A stretch of 64,000 bases of DNA from Coriobacteriia bacterium. Its GTDB lineage: Bacteria; Actinomycetota; Coriobacteriia; Anaerosomatales; Anaerosomataceae. The notes under the pieces are model-generated. The model was not told the origin of the DNA, did no database searches, and saw only the letters and a program-made list of their open reading frames with translations. This document shows positions 38,316-49,248 of this stretch, piece after piece (within the stretch, counting starts at the first letter, position 1; each line of letters starts with the position of its first letter). The stretch spans positions 1 through 64,000 of the forward strand of contig JAUSBY010000001.1 in assembly GCA_030651765.1 (NCBI GenBank), given 5' to 3'. Position numbers and translations under genes: made by a program.

Positions 38316-39188
38316 TCAGTCGGCCACGAGCTCGGCGGCGTGGTAGCTCGACCGCACGAGAGGGGCGCTCGCCACGCCCGAGAAGCCCATCTTCCGGCCC
38401 TCACGGGCCAGCAGGGTGAACTCGGCAGGCTCGATGAAGGCCGCCACGGGCAGGTGCGCCGAGCTTGGACGCAGATACTGTCCGAGCGTCAGCAGATCGC
38501 AGCCCGCATCGCGCAGATCGCGCATGACCTCGAGCACCTCGTCGCGGGTCTCGCCGAGGCCGAGCATGAGTCCCGACTTCGTCGGCATCCCGGGTGCGCG
38601 CTCCTTCGCATGCGCGAGTACCGCGAGGCTCCTCGCGTAGTCGGCGCCGGGCCGCACCTCGGCGTACAGGCGCGGGACGGTTTCCAGGTTGTGATTGAAG
38701 ACGTCGGGCCGCGCGTCAACGACCAGATCGACCGCCTCGGCCGAGCCGCCGAAATCGCTCACCAGCACCTCAACGGCGACGCCGGGAGCGGTCGAGCGGA
38801 TCGCGGCGATCGTCGCGACCACGTGACCTGCCGCCCCGTCGGCAAGATCGTCGCGAGTCACCATCGTGACAACGGCATGTCTCAGGCCCAGCCGCACGAC
38901 CGCCTCGGCCACGCGCGCCGGCTCATCAGGGTCGAGTGGAAGCGGCGCCCTGGTCTCCACCGCACAGAAGCGACATCCGCGCGTGCACGCGTCTCCGGCG
39001 ACGAGGAACGTGGCGGTGCCACTCGCGAAGCACTCGCCGCGATTGGGGCACTTCGCCTCCTGACACACGGTCGCCAGGTGCAGTTCGCCGAGCAGGCTCT
39101 CGACGGCGCGATACTCGCCGCCGTGCGCGAGCGGTCTGCGCAGCCAGGCCGGGAGTCGGCGGGCATCCGAGCCGTGCTCGTAGGTCAC
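38316..39188 (-). CDS. lipA: Lipoyl synthase
   Basis: 290 residues from the GTG at 39188, one base after the lpdA stop; an in-frame GTG at 39221 is the alternative. It inserts two sulfurs into octanoyl groups by radical SAM chemistry. The auxiliary cluster motif is CQEAKCPNRGEC, the radical-SAM motif is CTRGCRFCAV, and the C-terminal RSSYHA supplies the Ser ligand (RSSYH). NHNLETVPRLY is the substrate region. It follows lpdA, consistent with lipoate-dependent complexes, though their other subunits are outside the window. Confidence 0.95.
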   Translation of the reverse strand: MTYEHGSDARRLPAWLRRPLAHGGEYRAVESLLGELHLATVCQEAKCPNRGECFASGTATFLVAGDACTRGCRFCAVETRAPLPLDPDEPARVAEAVVRLGLRHAVVTMVTRDDLADGAAGHVVATIAAIRSTAPGVAVEVLVSDFGGSAEAVDLVVDARPDVFNHNLETVPRLYAEVRPGADYARSLAVLAHAKERAPGMPTKSGLMLGLGETRDEVLEVMRDLRDAGCDLLTLGQYLRPSSAHLPVAAFIEPAEFTLLAREGRKMGFSGVASAPLVRSSYHAAELVAD

Positions 39189-39189
39189 G

Positions 39190-40584
39190 TCAGCAGCCGC
39201 ACTTCCCCGCGGCGTCGGCACACGCCATGCGGATGACCTCGGAGACGGTGGGGTGTGCGTGCACCGTCTCGGCGAGATCGCGCACGGTCAGTCCGTGGCG
39301 GATAGCCAGGGCGACCTCGTGAATCGTCTCGACCGCATGTGGCCCAACGATCTGGCAGCCGACGATCGCGCCGGTTCCCTTCTCGGCGACGATCTGCACG
39401 AATCCGTCGGCGTCTCCCTCACCGAGCGCCTTGCCGTTCGCGGCGAACTTGGCGACCGCCTGCACCACGTCGACACCGCGCTCCTTGGCGCTGTCGCGCG
39501 TGCTCCCCACGACCGCGACCTCGGGGAAGGTGTACACGCACGCGGGGATGCAGTCGTAGCGCACGCTCTCCAGACTCGCTTCGGCGCCGACCGTCGAGAA
39601 CTCCGCCACCGCGTTTCTCGCGGCGACGACGCCCTCCTCGTCGGCCACGTGGGCGAGCATCATGCCGCCGATCACGTCGCCGATGGCATAGACACCCTCG
39701 ACGCTCGTGCGGAAGTACGGGTCGACCTTGACCGCTCGTCTTTCGAACTCGACCCCGGCCTCCTCGAAGCCAAGCCCCGCCGAGTTGGGGATGCGCCCCA
39801 CCGCGCTCATCACGATGTCGCTCGAGAGGACCGTACCGCTGCGCAACGTCGCACGCATCCGATCACCGATGCGCTCCACGCGCTCGACCGCGTCACCCAG
39901 ATGGAAGGTGACACCCATCTCCTCGAGCGCGGCTTGCGTCTGCTTCACTACGCGCCGGTCGTTACCCGGCAGGACCTGCTCCATGAGCTCGACTACAGTC
40001 ACCACGCTGCCGAACGCCGCGTACGCGCACGCGAACTCGAGACCGATGACGCCGCCGCCGATGATGACGATGTCCTTGGGGATGTCCGAGAGCGCGACCG
40101 CCTCGTCGCTCGTCCACACACCCTCGAGGTCGTGATCGATGCCCGGGAGCTTGAAGACGACCGACCCAGTCGCGAGGATCACCGCGTCACCTTCCACGGT
40201 CTCGGTCGTGCCGTCGGCGAGTGCGACCACGACCGCCTTCGGCCCCGCAAGCCTCCCGGTCCCGGCAAGGACACGCACCTTCAGGCGCCGTGCGGTCCCC
40301 TCGACCTGACCCACGAGCTCGTCGACGACCGCCTCCTTGCGCGCTCTCAGCGCGGGCACGTCCACACTGGCGACCGACGCGCTCAGGCCGAACGCCGCGG
40401 CCTCGCGTGTGTCGGCAACGATGTGTGCCGAGCGCAGGATCGTCTTCGTGGGGATACAGCCCCAGTTCAGACACGTACCGCCGAGGCGACTGGCCTCGAT
40501 CAACGTCACGTCAGCCCCGAGCCGGGCCGCTTCGAATGCCGCTGCGTGACCACCGGGCCCGCCACCGAGTATGACGATATGCAT
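39190..40584 (-). CDS. lpdA: Dihydrolipoamide dehydrogenase
   Basis: 464 residues. The FAD-binding GGGPGGHAAAFEAARLG is at residues 7-23, the redox disulfide is in GGTCLNWGCIPTK, the NAD motif is GGGVIGLEFACAYA and the C-terminal catalytic pair lies in AVETIHEVALAIRHG-VHAHPTVSE (His in HAHPT and Glu). It reoxidises dihydrolipoyl groups of glycine cleavage or 2-oxoacid complexes. The protein ends in an additional Cys pair (KCGC), which is not typical. GGGGAGG precedes the ATG. Confidence 0.95.
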   Translation of the reverse strand: MHIVILGGGPGGHAAAFEAARLGADVTLIEASRLGGTCLNWGCIPTKTILRSAHIVADTREAAAFGLSASVASVDVPALRARKEAVVDELVGQVEGTARRLKVRVLAGTGRLAGPKAVVVALADGTTETVEGDAVILATGSVVFKLPGIDHDLEGVWTSDEAVALSDIPKDIVIIGGGVIGLEFACAYAAFGSVVTVVELMEQVLPGNDRRVVKQTQAALEEMGVTFHLGDAVERVERIGDRMRATLRSGTVLSSDIVMSAVGRIPNSAGLGFEEAGVEFERRAVKVDPYFRTSVEGVYAIGDVIGGMMLAHVADEEGVVAARNAVAEFSTVGAEASLESVRYDCIPACVYTFPEVAVVGSTRDSAKERGVDVVQAVAKFAANGKALGEGDADGFVQIVAEKGTGAIVGCQIVGPHAVETIHEVALAIRHGLTVRDLAETVHAHPTVSEVIRMACADAAGKCGC

Positions 40585-40645: not shown

Positions 40646-40942
40646 CTACGCGCTCGGCTCGGCCGCGGGAACGGGCTCCTCGTCGGCGCGCTCGAGAGCG
40701 GCGCGGACCGTCTTCACGTTCACCGGATCGACGCCGAAACGACCGTCGACGATCACGGGCGCGCCTTCATGGGCCCGGTCTTCCGGTTCCCACTCGCGGA
40801 TGATGAGCCTGCCCCGCCATCGGGGCCAGCGCGACACGGCTTGGACCAGCCGCAGCTCGTAGTCTCAATCGGGACACAGGCGCATCACATCCACGACGAT
40901 ACGTCGCGGCTCGGGCGGATCCGGTGTCCCGGACGGCGTCAT
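40646..40942 (-). CDS. Probable selenoprotein: thioredoxin-fold protein with CxxU (Cys-Pro-Asp-Sec) motif
   Basis: A single frame of 99 codons from the ATG at 40942 to the TGA at 40646-40648, interrupted only by an in-frame TGA at 40867-40865 (codon 26). Reading it as Sec gives RRIVVDVMRLC-P-D-U-DYELRLVQ, with C23 and U26 forming CxxU after beta strand 1. RLIIREW is then strand 2, and APVIVDGRFGVDP has the cis-Pro strand typical of thioredoxin-fold proteins, followed by helix VKTVRAALERA. The fold is continuous only if the TGA is read through. A SECIS-like hairpin lies directly downstream. Last gene of the methionine/molybdenum operon, 28 nt after the MoaE-like gene. The alternative is a recent nonsense mutation. 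Confidence 0.8.
40831..40858 (-). promoter_or_regulatory. Candidate bacterial SECIS element
   Basis: CGGCT (40852-40848) pairs with AGCCG (40841-40837) around the loop GGTCCA; two G-U pairs extend the stem. The first loop G lies 17 nt after the TGA. A short stem with GG(U) at the loop start, 16-37 nt from the UGA, is what SelB needs in bacteria. Confidence 0.65.
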
Positions 40943-40970: not shown

Positions 40971-41351
40971 CTACTGCTCCGGACGTTGTTCGGTCTCGGT
41001 GACAACCTCGGTCTTGATCATGCGCACGAGTGCCGAGAGCGCCTCGAAGACGTTGTCTCGTATATCCCCGCCGACCATGACGTACATGATGTCGTCGCCG
41101 ACTTCGAGGTGTCCCTCGTTGACCCAGACGCGCACGATCGAGACGCCGTCCATGAGCCGGGCGGTGGCGAGGATCTCGGCAAGCCGTCCGTGGTCGACGG
41201 CGAGATCCATCCCGCTCACCGGACGGCCGTCACGCGAGAACGAACGGACGACGCCGTTGTGGCACAGGTACATGCCCACGCCCGCGGCGTCGGCCTCGCG
41301 TTTTGCCTCGGCAAGCCATACGTCCAGGCTTGGGGCCGCCTGCTCGTTCAC
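40971..41351 (-). CDS. MoaE-like molybdenum cofactor biosynthesis protein
   Basis: 126 residues with a GTG start overlapping the preceding stop (GTGA). The fold pattern resembles MoaE, the large subunit of molybdopterin synthase: GVGMYLCHNGVVRSFSRDGRPVSGMDL, VRVWVNEGHLEVGDDIMYVMVGGDIRDNVFEAL (quoted pieces: NEGHLEVGDD, GGDIRDNVFEAL), and ALVRMIKTEVV at the end. The usual C-terminal PIWK lysine motif of MoaE is not evident, and no MoaD is in the window, so it may be a divergent member with a different partner. It follows a TorD-like chaperone, which supports a molybdoenzyme role. Confidence 0.75.
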   Translation of the reverse strand: MNEQAAPSLDVWLAEAKREADAAGVGMYLCHNGVVRSFSRDGRPVSGMDLAVDHGRLAEILATARLMDGVSIVRVWVNEGHLEVGDDIMYVMVGGDIRDNVFEALSALVRMIKTEVVTETEQRPEQ

Positions 41352-43009
41352 TGTGGACCGCCTCCCTGGTGATGCAAGCCGTCCGTGCGCGCCGATGATA
41401 GCACGCCCGATGCGGACCCTCTCTCGCGCATCTCGCAGTATTCGGGCACCGCCGCTCTGAACGTGCCCGCCTCGCAGATAAGGTACTTGTCGAGCGCGAG
41501 ACCCACGTAGCGCATGACCGGTTCGGTCGCCTGTTGTGCGGTGACAACGGCGAGGAGAACGGCCCAGTCGGCAAGGTGCCCCACGAAGAAGTCGTGTGCC
41601 AGACCGAGACTGTCCGAGTCAGCGGCCGGGCCGCGCCTGAGACAGTGAGCCATGAACGCCAGCTCGACCGAGATGTGCCCGATGTCACCGGAGCCGTCCC
41701 CGGCCGACGTGAAACCCGCGGCGGCATAGAGTGCCTCGAGTCCCGCCGCGTTTCCCGCCTCATCGCCCGCCAGGTAGGTAAGCTCGCTCGGCGAGAGCAC
41801 GTGGACAAACGGGTCGAATCGGCCCGGCTCACCGTGAAGGCGGACACGCTCGGCTGCAAACGCCTCCAAACCGGCCGGGCGCTCGAGCGCGTGAAGCGCT
41901 TCGTCCCGGGCGACCTCGATCGCACGGTCGTCGAGGTGAGGATTCTTCCGGCAGGAACGCATCGCCGTCGCCAGTCTGGCCGCCGCGCCCGGAGCCGACG
42001 CCGGTGGGTCCCGGTACAGCGCCGCAAAGCACTCGTAGGCCGCGATGCGGTCCCCGAGCGCGCACGTACACTGCCGGCCCTCGCCTACGGCCCCGCACCC
42101 GTGACTCGCACCTCCACTGATGGTGGAGAACGCCCGGCGAAGCACACCGTCCCGGTGGCCGTGTCGATGGTCGTGCGGCTCGGAGACGCTCGACGGAGAC
42201 AGGGTGTGACGCGTCTCCGACCCGGTGGACAGCGCCGAGGCGAGCGTTGCGGGAAGTCCGCGTGCGACGGTGTCCCGCACCACGGACTCGGTGTCGTACG
42301 CCACCCGATGCAGGTGTGCCGACAACCACAGGTCCGTCTCGCCGACACGTCGGCATGCAAGGTCCTCGACCGCGCGCGTGAGCACCTCCTGGTGCGTGCC
42401 GAGCGCGAGTTCCACCCACGCGGCACGTGGGTCGCCGTCGCGCGGACGACCGACCGACCCCGCGTTCACCCAGTGGCAGACACCGGCCTCGGTGGGAATG
42501 GAGCGGTGGAACGGGACGTGCACGTGACCGCAACACACGGCATCGACGCCTGCGCCACGCACGAGCGACACGAGCAACGAGCCGGCCGCGTCCGGCGCGA
42601 CGATCTCGTTCATCCTGCGCGGAGTCCCATGGCACAGCAGGATGCGTACGCCATCGATCTCGAGCACGATCTCGCGCGGTAGCGCCGAGAGATACCGCTC
42701 GTCTTCCCGGCTCATCGCCGCGATGGTGTACGCGTACGACTCGGCCGCATCGAGCGTCTCCTGTGGTGTCGGCAGGTTGCTGCCCGAGTCGCGAAGCCTG
42801 GCGCCGAGTGCGCGATCGAAGTTGCCCTGAACGACCGTGTCGCCGATAGCGCGCATGCGTGCGATCACCTCTACGGGGTGCGGTCCGTAGCCGACCAGGT
42901 CACCAAGGCAGTATCGCTCGGTGATCCCCTCGGCCTGCATGTGATCGAGCACGGCCTGAAGCGCAGGCAGATTCGCGTGCACGTCGCTATACAGTCCGAT
43001 GCGCCTCAT
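41348..43009 (-). CDS. Metallophosphoesterase fused to a TorD/DmsD-like molybdoenzyme chaperone
   Basis: 553 residues. The N-terminal half (1-255) is a calcineurin-like phosphoesterase of the YfcE type: YSDVHANLPAL, CLGDLVGYGPHP, QGNFD, LLCHGTPRR, CGHVHVPF and NAGSVGRPRDGDP. A His/Gly/Cys-rich linker (about 255-310, HDHRHGHRDG) leads to a helical domain with TorD/NarJ-family features: AAYECFAALYRDPP, the late motif HISVELAFMAHCL and FFVGHLADWAVLL, then LDKYLICEA. TorD-like proteins guard Tat-exported molybdoenzymes. No in-frame start with a ribosome site lies at the junction, so one polypeptide is likely. It follows metF by 9 nt. Confidence 0.85.
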   Translation of the reverse strand: MRRIGLYSDVHANLPALQAVLDHMQAEGITERYCLGDLVGYGPHPVEVIARMRAIGDTVVQGNFDRALGARLRDSGSNLPTPQETLDAAESYAYTIAAMSREDERYLSALPREIVLEIDGVRILLCHGTPRRMNEIVAPDAAGSLLVSLVRGAGVDAVCCGHVHVPFHRSIPTEAGVCHWVNAGSVGRPRDGDPRAAWVELALGTHQEVLTRAVEDLACRRVGETDLWLSAHLHRVAYDTESVVRDTVARGLPATLASALSTGSETRHTLSPSSVSEPHDHRHGHRDGVLRRAFSTISGGASHGCGAVGEGRQCTCALGDRIAAYECFAALYRDPPASAPGAAARLATAMRSCRKNPHLDDRAIEVARDEALHALERPAGLEAFAAERVRLHGEPGRFDPFVHVLSPSELTYLAGDEAGNAAGLEALYAAAGFTSAGDGSGDIGHISVELAFMAHCLRRGPAADSDSLGLAHDFFVGHLADWAVLLAVVTAQQATEPVMRYVGLALDKYLICEAGTFRAAVPEYCEMRERGSASGVLSSARTDGLHHQGGGPQ

Positions 43010-43018
43010 GCTCTCCGC

Positions 43019-43885
43019 CTAGCTGTTGTTTCCGAGGATGCGACCGACCGCCGCGTCAAGGCCGAGCGGCATGATATGCACGCCGTCGGCTATCGCCCGG
43101 ATCTCGCGCACCTGCTCGGTGGCAAGCACGATCGCCTCCTCGGCAGGGTCATCGGCCGATCGTATCCGATCGGCGATCGCGTCGGGCACCATGAGCCCGG
43201 CCAGTCGCTCGTTGATGAAGTCGATCACCCGCGGACTCTTGAGTACCAGGACGCCCGCGATGACCTTTGCACCATGCGGCCGCAACGCCTCGACCGCCCG
43301 CTCGAGTCTGGTCATGTCGAAGATGGCCTGCGTCTGGAAGAAGCGCACACCGGCCTCGATCTTCTGTTCGGCCCGGGCGAGCTGCACGTCCCACGGCTCG
43401 GCCTCCGGGAACATCGCCGCGCCGATGAAGAAGTCCGTTGCGCCCGCCAGAGGGCGATCCATCATGTCGTGGCCCTCGTTCATACCCCGGGTGATCTCGG
43501 CCAGCTGCGTCGAATCTAGGTCGAAGACCCCCTTCGCGTTCGGGTGGTCGCCCGCGCGCGGATCGTCACCGGTCACGACGAGAACGTTCTCGAGGCCGAG
43601 AGACCACGCGGCGAGCAGGTCGGACTGCAGCGCCAGACGGTTCCGGTCGCGGCACGTCTGCTGGAAGATGGGTTCGATGCCCATGTCGAGCACGAGCCGG
43701 GACGCTGCCAGGCTCGCCAGATGCAGGCTCGCACCCTGGTTGTCGGTCACGTTGAGCGCATGGCAGTGCGGCGCGAGCAGCTCGACTGCCGCGCGCATCG
43801 CCGTCACGTCGGCGCCCTTCGGTGGTGCGACCTCGCCGGTCACCACGAACTCACCCGCCGCGAGCATGTCCTTGAGGCGGCTCAC
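43019..43885 (-). CDS. metF: Methylenetetrahydrofolate reductase
   Basis: 288 residues from a GTG overlapping the metV stop (GTGA). The TIM-barrel enzyme reduces 5,10-methylene-THF to 5-methyl-THF with FAD. Motifs: FVVTGEVAPPKGAD at the N-terminus (catalytic Glu), ALNVTDNQGASLHLA, ENVLVVTGDDPRAGDHPNAKGVFDLDS (pieces: VTGDDPRAGDHP) and EAGVRFFQTQAIFD near the C-terminus. It lacks the regulatory domain of the eukaryotic enzyme. Paired with MetV as in acetogens, where the complex takes electrons from a low-potential donor. Confidence 0.95.
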   Translation of the reverse strand: MSRLKDMLAAGEFVVTGEVAPPKGADVTAMRAAVELLAPHCHALNVTDNQGASLHLASLAASRLVLDMGIEPIFQQTCRDRNRLALQSDLLAAWSLGLENVLVVTGDDPRAGDHPNAKGVFDLDSTQLAEITRGMNEGHDMMDRPLAGATDFFIGAAMFPEAEPWDVQLARAEQKIEAGVRFFQTQAIFDMTRLERAVEALRPHGAKVIAGVLVLKSPRVIDFINERLAGLMVPDAIADRIRSADDPAEEAIVLATEQVREIRAIADGVHIMPLGLDAAVGRILGNNS

Positions 43886-44544
43886 CGGCTGCCCCCCTGT
43901 CGGCGGATGTTCACGCCGCCCGGCTTCAGGGTCTTGCTGAAGTCCTTCGGCGCCAGCGTGCCCTTGCCGGCACGGTGCTGCTCGGTCAGGCGGCGGCGAA
44001 TCCGGACGTGCGTGCACTCGCGGTCGGTCAGCACCTCGCACATACCCTCCCACATCCCGCCACACGGGCCGTTGAGCAGGCCCTTCGGGCAGGTCGTGAC
44101 CGGACAGATCCCGGCGGTCTTGTCGAGGACACACTCGCCGCACATCAGGCAGCGCTCCTCGAAGATGCCGTTGCGGATGACGTTGCCCAGGAACAGCGAC
44201 TCGAGTCCCGGGAACACGGGCTTGGTCACCGAGTCGGCCACGGTCTGCACGCCGGCGCCACATGCGAGCACGAGCACGGCGTCGGCCGCCTCGATGTCAC
44301 CGCCGTGCTTGCGGCTCTCGCGCTTCGTCCCGCCGAGATGGCACGTGACCTCGCCGACGGTCCACCCGGTGACTTCCAGTCCGAGCGCCTCGAGCCTGGC
44401 GGCCACCTCGGCCACCTCGGTCTCGCCGCCCGTGTGGGCGACCGTAGCGCACTGGCCGCAGCCCATGATGAAGACGCTCCTCGCGCCGATGCTCGCAAGG
44501 TTGTCCTCGATGCGCTCCCAGTCGCGCGGCCGTGTGATGATCAT
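43882..44544 (-). CDS. metV: Methylenetetrahydrofolate reductase partner subunit MetV
   Basis: 220 residues. A zinc/iron-sulfur-binding protein of the MetV (MTHFR_C-like) family. The N-terminal domain has FIMGCGQCATVAHTGG and EVTCHLGGTKRES; later CLMCGECVLDKTAGICPVTTCPKGL and NGPCGGMWEGMCEV provide further Cys sites. MetV docks to MetF in Wood-Ljungdahl organisms. The ATG overlaps the stop of the methyltransferase gene, and its own stop overlaps metF. Confidence 0.93.
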   Translation of the reverse strand: MIITRPRDWERIEDNLASIGARSVFIMGCGQCATVAHTGGETEVAEVAARLEALGLEVTGWTVGEVTCHLGGTKRESRKHGGDIEAADAVLVLACGAGVQTVADSVTKPVFPGLESLFLGNVIRNGIFEERCLMCGECVLDKTAGICPVTTCPKGLLNGPCGGMWEGMCEVLTDRECTHVRIRRRLTEQHRAGKGTLAPKDFSKTLKPGGVNIRRQGGSR

Positions 44545-46943
44545 GCGCGTCCCCTGCTTGTCTCGATGGCCTCCCGCACGGCCGACACGCAGCCGGGAGC
44601 GTCTTCAGAGTACCCCGCGCCGAGTGAATCGGCGAAGTCCCGCGTGACGACGGCACCGCCGACGAGCACCGATGCCGGGCCGACGGCCCGCACGGCCCCG
44701 GCAGCGATCTCCATGTTGCGAAGTGTCGTGGTCATGAGCGCCGAGAGACACACGACGTCCGCGGCGACGGCTGCCTCGGCGAACCGCTCGGGCGACACGT
44801 CAACGCCGAGGTCCTCGACGAGGTAGCCCTGGCTTTCCAGCATGCTCACGCAGATGTCCTTGCCGATGGAGTGGATGTCGCCCTTGACCGTGCCGAACAC
44901 GACGCGGCCCTCGTGTGCGGCCGATCCCTCGGGCAGGTGCGACTTCGCGCGCCCGAACGCGGCCTTCATCGCATCGGCGGCCGCGATGAGCTGCGGCAAG
45001 AACACCTCGCCGCGCCCGTATGCGTCGCCGAGACGCTGGATCGCCGGCGTGAGCACCTCGGCGATGACCGCCTGCGGGGCGATGCCCTCACCGATCAGCT
45101 CGTCGACGAGATCCGGGGCCGAGTCGGTGTCGCCGCGCTCGATGGCCCGACCCAGGCGGGTGGGGACATCACCACCACTCGCGGGCGGAACTGGCTCATG
45201 TGCCTGCGACGTAGCGAGTGCGATCCACCGCTCGGCACGCGGATCGCGGCCAAGCAGCACGTCTGCCGCAGCGGATGCGGTCGCATCGTCGAGTTCGATG
45301 CGCTCGGATGGGTTAACGATGGCCGCGTTCAGACCGGCGGCCACGGCAAGCGTGAGGAACCGCGCGTTGAGTGCAGGCCGGCCCGGCAGGCCGTGGCTCA
45401 CGTTGCTCACGCCCGCAAGCGTCGCCAGCCCGAGATCGTGACTCACCGTGCGGATCGCATCGAGCGTGGCCGAAGCGCCCATCTCCTCGGTGGCCGCGGC
45501 AAGCACGAGCGTGTCGACGAGCAGGTCGTCGTCGGTAAGGCCGGCGGCGTGAGCCTCCTCGCGCACCCGCCGCACCACCGCCACGCGCGCGTCGGCCGCA
45601 TGAGGGATGCCGTCGTCGTCGAGCGCAAGCACGACGACGGCCGCACCGTAGCGGACAGCGAGCGGGAGTACGGCGGCAAGCGAGTCGGCCTCACCGCTGA
45701 CGCTGTTGATAAGCGCACGACCCGGATAGACCCTGAGAGCAGCCTCGAGCGCGGCGTGATCGGTGGTGTCGATCACAAGCGGGACGTCTACCAGTCCGGA
45801 CAGTGCGAGCACGGCCTTCGGCAGCACGTCTGACTGCACCACACCGGCGGCACCCACGTTCACGTCGAGCAGATCGGCACCGGCGTCGGTCTGCTCGATG
45901 GCATACTCGCGGACCACGTCGAGCGCGCCTGCGCGCAGTGAGTCGGCCAGGCGCTTCTTGCCGGTGGGGTTGATGCGCTCGCCGATCCTCGCCAACGGCT
46001 GTCCCGGGCCGATGCGGACGACGCCGCGGGGACCGGCGAGCGTGACGCCCGCCGTCGGCGCGGCGCGCCCGGCCAGACGGCGCTCCTTGGCGAAGTCGAC
46101 GATCGAGCCCGTGAACTCCGGCGTCGAGCCGCAGCACGAGCCGACGAGAGCGGCACCGGCATCCACGAAGCGCGCGGCGTACTCGCCCATCTCCAGGGCT
46201 GTGCCGGGAAACACGGTCGCGCCGCCTACCAGCTGCGGCAGGCCCGCGTTGGGCTGCACGATGACCGGCAGCGTCGTGGCGGCTGCCATGCGCTCGACGA
46301 GCGGCAGCATCTGCTCCGGGCCCAGACCGCAGTTCATGCCGACCGCCGATGCTCCGACGGCAGCAAGTATCACTGCTGCGGTCTCGGGTTCGGTGCCCGA
46401 GAGGTCCATCCGGCCGTTGAGACCGAACGTGCACGTCACGAACACCGGCAGATCGGTCACCGAGCGCGCGGCAAGCACGGCGCAACGAGCCTCGGCGATG
46501 TCGGTCATCGTCTCGATGAGCAGCGCGTCGACGCCCTCGGCCACAAGCGCAGCGGCCTGCTCACGAAACGCGTCGAACACCTCGTCGAACACCGCGGTGC
46601 CGAGCGGCTCGAGTACGAGGCCGGTCGGTCCGATGTCGCCTAGGATGTGCGGCGCCCCGCCGGCGCGCGCGAGCCGCACGGCTGCCCGGTTGAGCTCGGC
46701 CACCTGGTCGTCCAACCCGTGCGCGGCCAGCTTGATGCGCGTGCCGCCGAAGGAGTTGGTGGTGGCGCACTCGGCACCGGCGAGCGCGTAGAGGCGGTGC
46801 ACCTCCTCTATGACCTCAGGCGCGGTGATGTTGAGCTGCATCGGCGCGATCTCGGGCGGAACCGCCGCGCGCTGGAGCATCGTGCCCATGGCGCCGTCGA
46901 TGACGAGCACCTCACGGCCGAGTCGACGTCCGATATCAGGCAT
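44541..46943 (-). CDS. Cobalamin-dependent methionine synthase-like methyltransferase (MetH without reactivation domain)
   Basis: 800 residues in three modules. Homocysteine S-methyltransferase (1-290): IDGAMGTMLQ, the Zn Cys in GMNCG and the GSCCGSTPEFT pair. Pterin-binding barrel (about 315-560): RIGERINPTGKK, DLLDVNVGAAGV, PLVIDTTDHAALE. B12 cap and binding domains (about 590-800): the His motif DIHSIGKDI, then DLGVDVSPE and VGGAVVTRDFA. The AdoMet-dependent reactivation domain of E. coli MetH is absent, as in many anaerobes. It makes methionine from homocysteine and 5-methyl-THF, so DUF39 upstream and MetVF downstream complete a pathway. Confidence 0.94.
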   Translation of the reverse strand: MPDIGRRLGREVLVIDGAMGTMLQRAAVPPEIAPMQLNITAPEVIEEVHRLYALAGAECATTNSFGGTRIKLAAHGLDDQVAELNRAAVRLARAGGAPHILGDIGPTGLVLEPLGTAVFDEVFDAFREQAAALVAEGVDALLIETMTDIAEARCAVLAARSVTDLPVFVTCTFGLNGRMDLSGTEPETAAVILAAVGASAVGMNCGLGPEQMLPLVERMAAATTLPVIVQPNAGLPQLVGGATVFPGTALEMGEYAARFVDAGAALVGSCCGSTPEFTGSIVDFAKERRLAGRAAPTAGVTLAGPRGVVRIGPGQPLARIGERINPTGKKRLADSLRAGALDVVREYAIEQTDAGADLLDVNVGAAGVVQSDVLPKAVLALSGLVDVPLVIDTTDHAALEAALRVYPGRALINSVSGEADSLAAVLPLAVRYGAAVVVLALDDDGIPHAADARVAVVRRVREEAHAAGLTDDDLLVDTLVLAAATEEMGASATLDAIRTVSHDLGLATLAGVSNVSHGLPGRPALNARFLTLAVAAGLNAAIVNPSERIELDDATASAAADVLLGRDPRAERWIALATSQAHEPVPPASGGDVPTRLGRAIERGDTDSAPDLVDELIGEGIAPQAVIAEVLTPAIQRLGDAYGRGEVFLPQLIAAADAMKAAFGRAKSHLPEGSAAHEGRVVFGTVKGDIHSIGKDICVSMLESQGYLVEDLGVDVSPERFAEAAVAADVVCLSALMTTTLRNMEIAAGAVRAVGPASVLVGGAVVTRDFADSLGAGYSEDAPGCVSAVREAIETSRGRA

Positions 46944-47300: not shown

Positions 47301-47708
47301 TTAGAAACTCAGCGTGATGGCTCTTCGTGGACAGGCTATCACGCACGCTTCGCAGTACACGCACTTGTCCTTGTCGAACACGAGCGTCTGGGTCTCGGGG
47401 TCGAGCGTGAGCGCGTCGGGCTTGCACACAGCGGTGCACAGACCACAGTTCACGCACAGCTCTTCGTCGAGCACGATGTCACTCGCGGCCTCACGCACGG
47501 TGAGACCCTGGCTTTCCAGGAAGGCCACACCAGCGGCGTAGCTCTCCTTGCTGCCGGTGACCTCGAGGACCATGCGCCCCTCCTGTGCGGGATGGATCTG
47601 CGCCCGCAGGATGTTCGGCACGAGGTCGTAGTCCTTCACGAGATGGTAGATGACCGGCTTCAGGGACTGCCGGGGCGGGAACGTCAGGTCGAGTCTCTTG
47701 CGCGGCAT
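47301..47708 (-). CDS. NIL-domain ferredoxin (homocysteine formation partner)
   Basis: 135 residues. The N-terminal NIL domain (1-78) has LKPVIYHLVKDYDLVPNILRAQI and GRMVLEVTGSKESYAAGVAFL (cited as motifs of the ACT-like fold). The C-terminus has two [4Fe-4S] motifs: CVNCGLCTAVC and CVYCEACVIAC. In Methanosarcina the equivalent gene pairs with the DUF39 gene for sulfur insertion into aspartate semialdehyde to form homocysteine. It sits 2 nt after the DUF39 stop. Confidence 0.92.
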   Translation of the reverse strand: MPRKRLDLTFPPRQSLKPVIYHLVKDYDLVPNILRAQIHPAQEGRMVLEVTGSKESYAAGVAFLESQGLTVREAASDIVLDEELCVNCGLCTAVCKPDALTLDPETQTLVFDKDKCVYCEACVIACPRRAITLSF

Positions 47709-47710
47709 GG

Positions 47711-48883
47711 CTAGATCGCCTCCCCTGTCCGGATCTCAAGCGGCTTGAACGCCTGGCTTCCGACCTGCGGCAGCGCCTGGAGCGGAGGCGCCAGCGTGAA
47801 CCGCTCCTCGGCCACCCAGCGCTTCAGCTCGGATGCGATACGCCGCGCCACCGGCAGCGACGAGATCGGGCCGGTGGGGATGGTCTTGCCGCCTACCTCT
47901 ATCGAACCCGAGCGGAGCTCGGCGTAGGTGACCGTGCCGAGCGAAGGCCTCGACCGGTGCTGCACGCCGTAGTCGTAGATGGTCGCCTTGAGGTCCGCGT
48001 CGGTGAGCGCGAGTGTGGCCGCAATGTCGTCGTCGAGCACGGGGATCGGCACGCCGATGCCGACGAAGCTCGAGACACCGTACCTGGTGAACGTCGCCGC
48101 GCTGAAGAACTCCGGACTCGCCGCCTTGAGGTCGGCTATCACCGCGAGCGTGCCCGACGGACGCACCGGCACGCCGTGCTCGTCGCGATCGGTGTGCGGG
48201 TTGTGCTGCGTGCCCTCCCAGGCGACGTAGCCGGGCGCACCGGCCACGAAGCACCGGGTTCCGACACCGATCGTGCGGTACGTTGGGTCGTTCAGCAGCG
48301 GCGAGAGCGCGCCACCGGAGCAGTACGTCGCGTTGCCGAGGCGCGGCAGGAGCGTGCCGAGGTACGTGTACAGCGCGGTGTCGGTCGAGTTCACCGCAAC
48401 GGCGTAGTTCTGGTAGGCGTTGCGCGGATTGAAGAAGTACGCCTGGTTCAGGTCCTCGAGTGTCACCCACGTGTCGATCTCGGTCCGCGGATAGCAGTCG
48501 GTCCCCGGCCCGGTCGCGCGGAGGCGCACGGCGCGGCCGCGCAGCAGGTCCTCGATGACGTGCGCGCCACCGTACTCGATGCCGCGCACGCGACTCGGTT
48601 CCGTCACGCCGAGGTACGTGTCCACGGCCGCGAGTCCGCCGGAAGCCGGCACATCGTTCAGTGTGATCTCGCCCATCTTGATCGGCGGGTCCGAGTGTCC
48701 GAAGTTCAGGAACACGCCCGACGAGCACATCGGCCCGAACGTCCCGGTCGTGACCACGTCGACGCGCTTCGCCGCCGCGGACACGCCCTTCTCGGCCGCA
48801 AGCGCTCCGAACTCCTCGGCCGTGAACACGACCGCGTCACCCGATGCGATGCGCGCGTTGATCTCTTCCCAACTCTTAGCCAT
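47711..48883 (-). CDS. DUF39 homocysteine biosynthesis protein (L-aspartate-semialdehyde sulfurtransferase-like)
   Basis: 390 residues; the ATG at 48883 has GGAGG 8 nt upstream. The family forms homocysteine from aspartate semialdehyde and sulfide together with the NIL-ferredoxin. Conserved pieces: VVTTGTFGPMCSSGVFLNFG with the catalytic Cys, EIDTWVTLEDLNQAYFFNPRNAYQNY, GNATYCSGGALSPLLNDP and GVGTRCFVAGAPGYVAWEGTQHNP (each quoted in part; key Cys in GPMCSSG and TYCSGG). A methionine-type T-box precedes it, so the whole operon should respond to methionyl-tRNA charging. Confidence 0.92.
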   Translation of the reverse strand: MAKSWEEINARIASGDAVVFTAEEFGALAAEKGVSAAAKRVDVVTTGTFGPMCSSGVFLNFGHSDPPIKMGEITLNDVPASGGLAAVDTYLGVTEPSRVRGIEYGGAHVIEDLLRGRAVRLRATGPGTDCYPRTEIDTWVTLEDLNQAYFFNPRNAYQNYAVAVNSTDTALYTYLGTLLPRLGNATYCSGGALSPLLNDPTYRTIGVGTRCFVAGAPGYVAWEGTQHNPHTDRDEHGVPVRPSGTLAVIADLKAASPEFFSAATFTRYGVSSFVGIGVPIPVLDDDIAATLALTDADLKATIYDYGVQHRSRPSLGTVTYAELRSGSIEVGGKTIPTGPISSLPVARRIASELKRWVAEERFTLAPPLQALPQVGSQAFKPLEIRTGEAI

Positions 48884-48902
48884 ACCGTCCACCTCCGCAT
48901 AC

Positions 48903-49248
48903 GAAAAAACGCCTCCCGCCTGACAACATCTCTGTTCGTCAGGGCGAGAAGCGTGTCGCTTCGCGCGGTACCACCCGACTTCGCCGACAGCGTGCTGTCG
49001 GCCTCTCAAGCTCCGGACCCACCTGCTCCACGACGGCGGGAGTGCCGCGGCCGGGTCTTCGAAGCTCTCTAGCCCGAGGTAACGGGGGCGTCCGTCCGGC
49101 TCTACTCCGCGTGCGCGTTTCTGCCGGATGCCTCCGGGGCCATGTTCCGCGGCTTTTCAGACGCCGGTTCTCAGCTGCCCCGGCTCTCTGGAAGTCCTAG
49201 TAGGACCGCGTACTCTTCCCCATCGACGGCGTGGTGCTATCGATTTGT
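48903..49248 (-). promoter_or_regulatory. T-box riboswitch leader, methionine-type
   Basis: Fills most of the 429-nt gap 48884-49312. The T-box core GGGTGGTACCGCG lies at 48976-48964. The terminator stem (48953-48937 with 48924-48910) has TTTTTT at 48909-48904. Stem I features are GGGGAAGAGTAC (near 49220), CAGAGAGC and, on the returning strand, GGAACATGG with an AUG specifier at 49143-49141. Uncharged tRNA-Met would pair there and with the antiterminator to allow transcription of the DUF39-metH-metVF operon. The exact specifier should be confirmed by folding. Confidence 0.9.

Follow-up and report, generated by a model that had tools for sequence, protein, structure and literature searches.

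An open reading frame that is interrupted once by TGA raises the question of whether this codon ends a short peptide or is read as selenocysteine, a rare amino acid, counted as the 21st, that is encoded by a stop codon. Such a frame lies on the minus strand at positions 40942-40646 of the window, the 64,000-nucleotide stretch of Coriobacteriia bacterium DNA analysed here (GenBank assembly GCA_030651765.1, contig JAUSBY010000001.1). It comprises 98 codons plus a stop (99 codons in all), and its lone TGA (40865-40867) is codon 26, giving the motif C23-P-D-U26 (CPDU) in the translated context ...VDVMRLCPD-U-DYELRLVQAV..., exactly as the initial annotation of this DNA had described. The 63-codon tail starting at a GTG, which that annotation had also pointed out, is present as an open reading frame at 40646-40837, and standard gene callers would miss the gene or, at most, cut it to this tail. 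We hold with high confidence that the frame is a real, previously uncatalogued 98-residue selenoprotein in which a TGA read by SelB places CPDU in a thioredoxin-like fold, and which is likely a thiol/selenol-disulfide oxidoreductase.

The gene lies inside a row of genes on the minus strand, in the order moaE-like, CPDU gene, lpd and lipA. The MoaE-like gene (40971-41351; Pfam MoaE, E 8e-12) is directly upstream and the dihydrolipoyl dehydrogenase gene lpd (39190-40584) directly downstream, followed by the lipoyl synthase gene lipA (38316-39221). The CPDU gene had been placed at the end of a methionine/molybdenum operon, which is a loose description, since lpd and lipA come next on the same strand. 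On the upstream side, also on the minus strand, a calcineurin-like phosphoesterase is joined to a TorD/NarJ-like (Nitrate_red_del) chaperone domain in an unusual fusion (41348-43009), and is accompanied by methylenetetrahydrofolate reductase (MTHFR; 43019-44263) and a methionine synthase, MetH (44541-46943), which covers model positions 3-830 of 1182 and lacks the C-terminal activation domain. Beside this MetH, and on the same strand (47301-49009), are a NIL-domain ferredoxin (47301-47708) and the homocysteine biosynthesis enzyme HcyBio (47711-49009), a set that probably provides a sulfide-based route to homocysteine and methionine.

In order to find relatives, 69 genomes of the order were searched with the read-through protein. 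The initial annotation had stated that a TGA at the same codon in relatives, together with a hairpin downstream, would support selenocysteine, and three more copies were found, each with one TGA at this very codon, in G013 (public record Actinobacteria bacterium UBA2272), G012 and G005, at 97%, 73% and 71% protein identity, respectively. Together with the window genome, the carriers are four genomes from three genera of one family, the only four Sec-form sequences known; the TGA is identical in all four, and neither TAA nor TAG occurs in any of them. Between diverged pairs, NG86 dN/dS was 0.15-0.19 for the part after the TGA and 0.08-0.33 for the short part before it, while the two other sense frames gave 1.7-3.6 and one antisense frame was intermediate (0.37-0.47). 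Coding thus runs through the TGA in the frame 40942-40646, with mainly synonymous change on both sides, far beyond chance as a gene.

These comparisons bear on the possibility that the TGA is a true stop, with a 25-codon leader peptide being followed by a separate 63-codon protein from the GTG at 40837. The tail is indeed open, and the hairpin downstream of the TGA (see below) is not significant alone; however, the stretch just ahead of the TGA (codons 15-25) is conserved, its changes being mostly synonymous, and the nine codons between the TGA and the GTG are conserved too. Moreover, the GTG is replaced by GTC in G005 and by GTT in G012, and since it is not kept as a start, this speaks against two separate proteins. 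A remote relative with cysteine also has a single frame running through this position, where it reads CPDC. Taken together, we consider a true stop very improbable. For a TGA reassigned throughout (to Trp or another amino acid), or for a decayed Cys gene (pseudogene), nothing was found in favour, and we regard both as barely credible: TGA is not reassigned, because it is the normal stop in 4 of the 7 genes of the row and also ends the G005 orthologue, it is fixed at one active-site codon, and dN/dS is low in all compared lineages, which would not be kept in a decayed gene.

The distance between moaE-like and lpd is 389-448 nt in the four carriers as compared to 41-57 nt in eight relatives without the gene, and because these relatives join the two neighbours directly, the CPDU gene is a discrete unit. 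The four carriers are not cleanly grouped in a tree of the two neighbouring genes, which, along with the shared location, fits an inherited gene that was then lost several times, with modest support. Wider homologue searches of 398 genomes of the class and 396 of the phylum returned nothing beyond the four carriers, the two Cys copies and a single weak, incomplete match (G062), and no copies were found among the plasmids and viral contigs searched. A pattern scan of an 84,980-species collection found UBA2272 only, using patterns from one sequence, with the motif pattern in Cys codons, by which most TGA orthologues would be missed. Weak single-sequence matches in G033 and G035 were gone when searched with the four-sequence profile.

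The machinery for selenocysteine insertion, whose presence elsewhere in the genome had been named as support at the outset, was found in full, as the window genome has selA, selB, selD and a tRNA-Sec with a TCA anticodon (selC), and its SelD itself bears an in-frame TGA as Sec codon. Overall, selA occurs in 54 of the 69 genomes of the order; the machinery is general and the CPDU gene sporadic. G005 carries the gene, yet selA, selB and selC were not found in this assembly. It does have selD, again with a TGA, and the DNA downstream of this gene matches the window genome until the contig ends, ~5 kb before selA; given this syntenic order, an assembly gap likely lies behind the missing genes. All of this is consistent with the TGA of the CPDU gene being, most likely, read as selenocysteine.

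Two irregularities were observed among the sel genes. In the window genome (G000), contig C13:12178-12654 (L001, L020) carries a second tRNA-Sec, different at 3 nt, and a truncated selB C-terminus that matches the genome's own selB at 89% and that of G013 at 91%; this points either to an additional pair of selB and selC or to a contig from a sister strain. In G012 (C23:18538-19345; L091, L092), the selD match falls into two pieces with a gap, perhaps due to a frameshift or an assembly error.

Just downstream of the TGA, a candidate bacterial SECIS hairpin (UGCGGCU-GGUCCA-AGCCGUG; 40835-40854, minus strand) has the core pairing CGGCU-GGUCCA-AGCCG and an apical loop that begins 17 nt after the TGA. 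In the bSECIS model, the loop lies 16-37 nt after the UGA, with a G in the first two loop positions (PMC13188914). All four orthologues can form the hairpin, with the loop starting 17 nt past the TGA and a G in the first two loop bases, but about half of the neighbouring codons are comparable, as 50% of codons in the neighbouring genes are followed by a stem of at least 5 bp with a G in the loop, and synonymous shuffling gave P values of 0.08, 0.54 and 0.30. The hairpin is therefore compatible with a SECIS and not proof of one. The initial annotation had reported it with its loop and spacing; the structure is there and fits the bSECIS model, but taken alone it is no better than chance. Covariation within it gave no support among three distinct sequences, for which the pairing register is off by one base in G005 and synonymous shuffles were often equal, and Rfam returned nothing near a gathering score for this region. 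A strong hairpin in nearly this position was also seen in the SelD genes of nine genomes, with the loop 16-17 nt after the TGA in the relatives. This SelD hairpin, GGGGUC-CGGGN-GACCUC, stands right after the TGA and is strongly conserved (G000 C8:44581-45498, L033; relatives L084-L090 and L092), which makes it a good standard against which to judge SECIS elements in this lineage.

An AlphaFold model was built from five sequences (pLDDT 79, pTM 0.68). Its elements follow a beta-alpha-beta-beta-alpha-type order in which CPDU comes after strand 1 and before helix 1, and the model supports a thioredoxin-like fold for the protein, in agreement with the earlier description of a thioredoxin-fold selenoprotein with CxxU after a beta strand. 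In contrast, the cis-Pro strand of that description did not hold up, as the proposed proline is replaced by Leu in G012 and by Ala in the Cys relative. The nearest solved folds were thioredoxins, KaiB and SelW-related proteins at Z 7-8, values that are common without kinship; Foldseek with the model gave no match under 1e-3, and a profile search of PDB sequences nothing under E = 0.5. The window protein had no match in Pfam up to E = 10 and none in NCBIfam, selenoprotein models included. It also lacks two marks of classical thioredoxin (PF00085), a match to that Pfam model and a cis-Pro conserved ahead of the third strand. A thioredoxin-like fold and a Sec in the redox motif are shared with Sec.1/Sec.2 (PF13192) and further Trx-fold selenoproteins among the 119 prokaryotic families listed in 2026 (PMC13188914), but Sec.1/Sec.2 have a different spacing, CxU/UxC (PMC13188914), and the window protein does not match PF13192. 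No evident entry of the 119-family list (PMC13188914) fits by model or motif, and on these two counts the protein represents a new family within the well-known class of thioredoxin-fold selenoproteins.

Cysteine in place of U in homologues had also been proposed as a sign of selenocysteine, and a profile search recovered a remote Cys relative with CPDC in G003 and G066 (E ~2e-5 per genome). This relative is 27% identical, aligns over nearly its full length with an hhalign probability of 94%, and has one frame across the site. Against the NCBIfam SaoT model (NF040730; curated cut-off 65 bits), it scored 24.3 bits (E 2e-5), the G012 orthologue scored 11.4 bits and the window protein had no match. 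In G003 (C106:9000-26000, L099), the CPDC gene directly follows SaoD and shares a row with HgcA, HgcB, SaoP and SaoA, all above cut-off, and it sits where SaoT would be expected in an hgcAB/SAO cluster. These data suggest a wider SaoT-like thioredoxin group, of which the window gene, judged by its sequence, is probably a distant, stand-alone member. The window protein is not SaoT by the curated criterion. SaoT, of the selenocysteine-assisted organometallic (SAO) system, is likewise a small thioredoxin-like (seleno)protein, but is listed as UxxC in a 2026 review (PMC13188914), whereas the window protein has Sec at the second position, CxxU; and the Sao/Hgc neighbours of the SaoT system are found only with the Cys relative, the window gene having MoaE-like, Lpd, LipA, MetH and MTHFR genes instead. 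The mercury-methylation/SAO cluster with the CPDC gene is present in G003 (C106) and also in G066 (C41), and the 500 bases compared around this gene are identical in the two genomes, which are placed in different families, pointing to either transfer or shared contamination.

The selenoprotein might instead be a relative of SelW (Rdx family, PF10262), which also has CxxU after strand 1 and the same beta-alpha-beta-beta-alpha order. SelW-related structures superimposed on the model at Z 6.8-7.3 and a low rmsd of 2.3-2.9 Å (2.3 Å over 71 residues), and were tied with thioredoxins and KaiB. However, the window protein has no match to PF10262, since nothing in Pfam matches it up to E = 10, and the Cys relative matches SaoT instead (below the cut-off) and lies in an SAO/hgcAB cluster. 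We therefore consider an affiliation with SelW rather than SaoT unlikely.

By analogy with known CxxU proteins, the SaoT-like CPDU protein is likely a small thiol/selenol-disulfide reductase. SelB and Sec-tRNA(Sec) would read the TGA, probably aided by the hairpin just downstream, and so insert selenocysteine as the second redox residue of the CPDU motif, which lies between strand 1 and helix 1. The reduced Cys/Sec pair may then cycle with a Cys-Sec selenenylsulfide, as the motif predicts, and in this way the protein would maintain a thiol cofactor or a partner protein in the reduced state. Its reductase or electron donor could be the flavoprotein Lpd, encoded next to it, but the tie is weak because moaE-like and lpd adjoin without the CPDU gene too. 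A more specific scenario, which we put forward as a doubtful one, is that a stand-alone SaoT-like thioredoxin with Sec at the second position was recruited to the one-carbon/methionine cluster, where it would supply reducing power specifically to a step that depends on a corrinoid or a persulfide, e.g., that of HcyBio or of the MetH without activation domain.

Overall, the locus adds a selenoprotein family that has no evident entry in the 2026 catalogue and is overlooked by standard annotation, and it ties the SaoT group of thioredoxin-like proteins to a context other than the SAO system. Gene rows that are otherwise equal differ sharply at a single site in having or lacking this gene, and so offer a clean comparison, set up by nature, of what the protein contributes.
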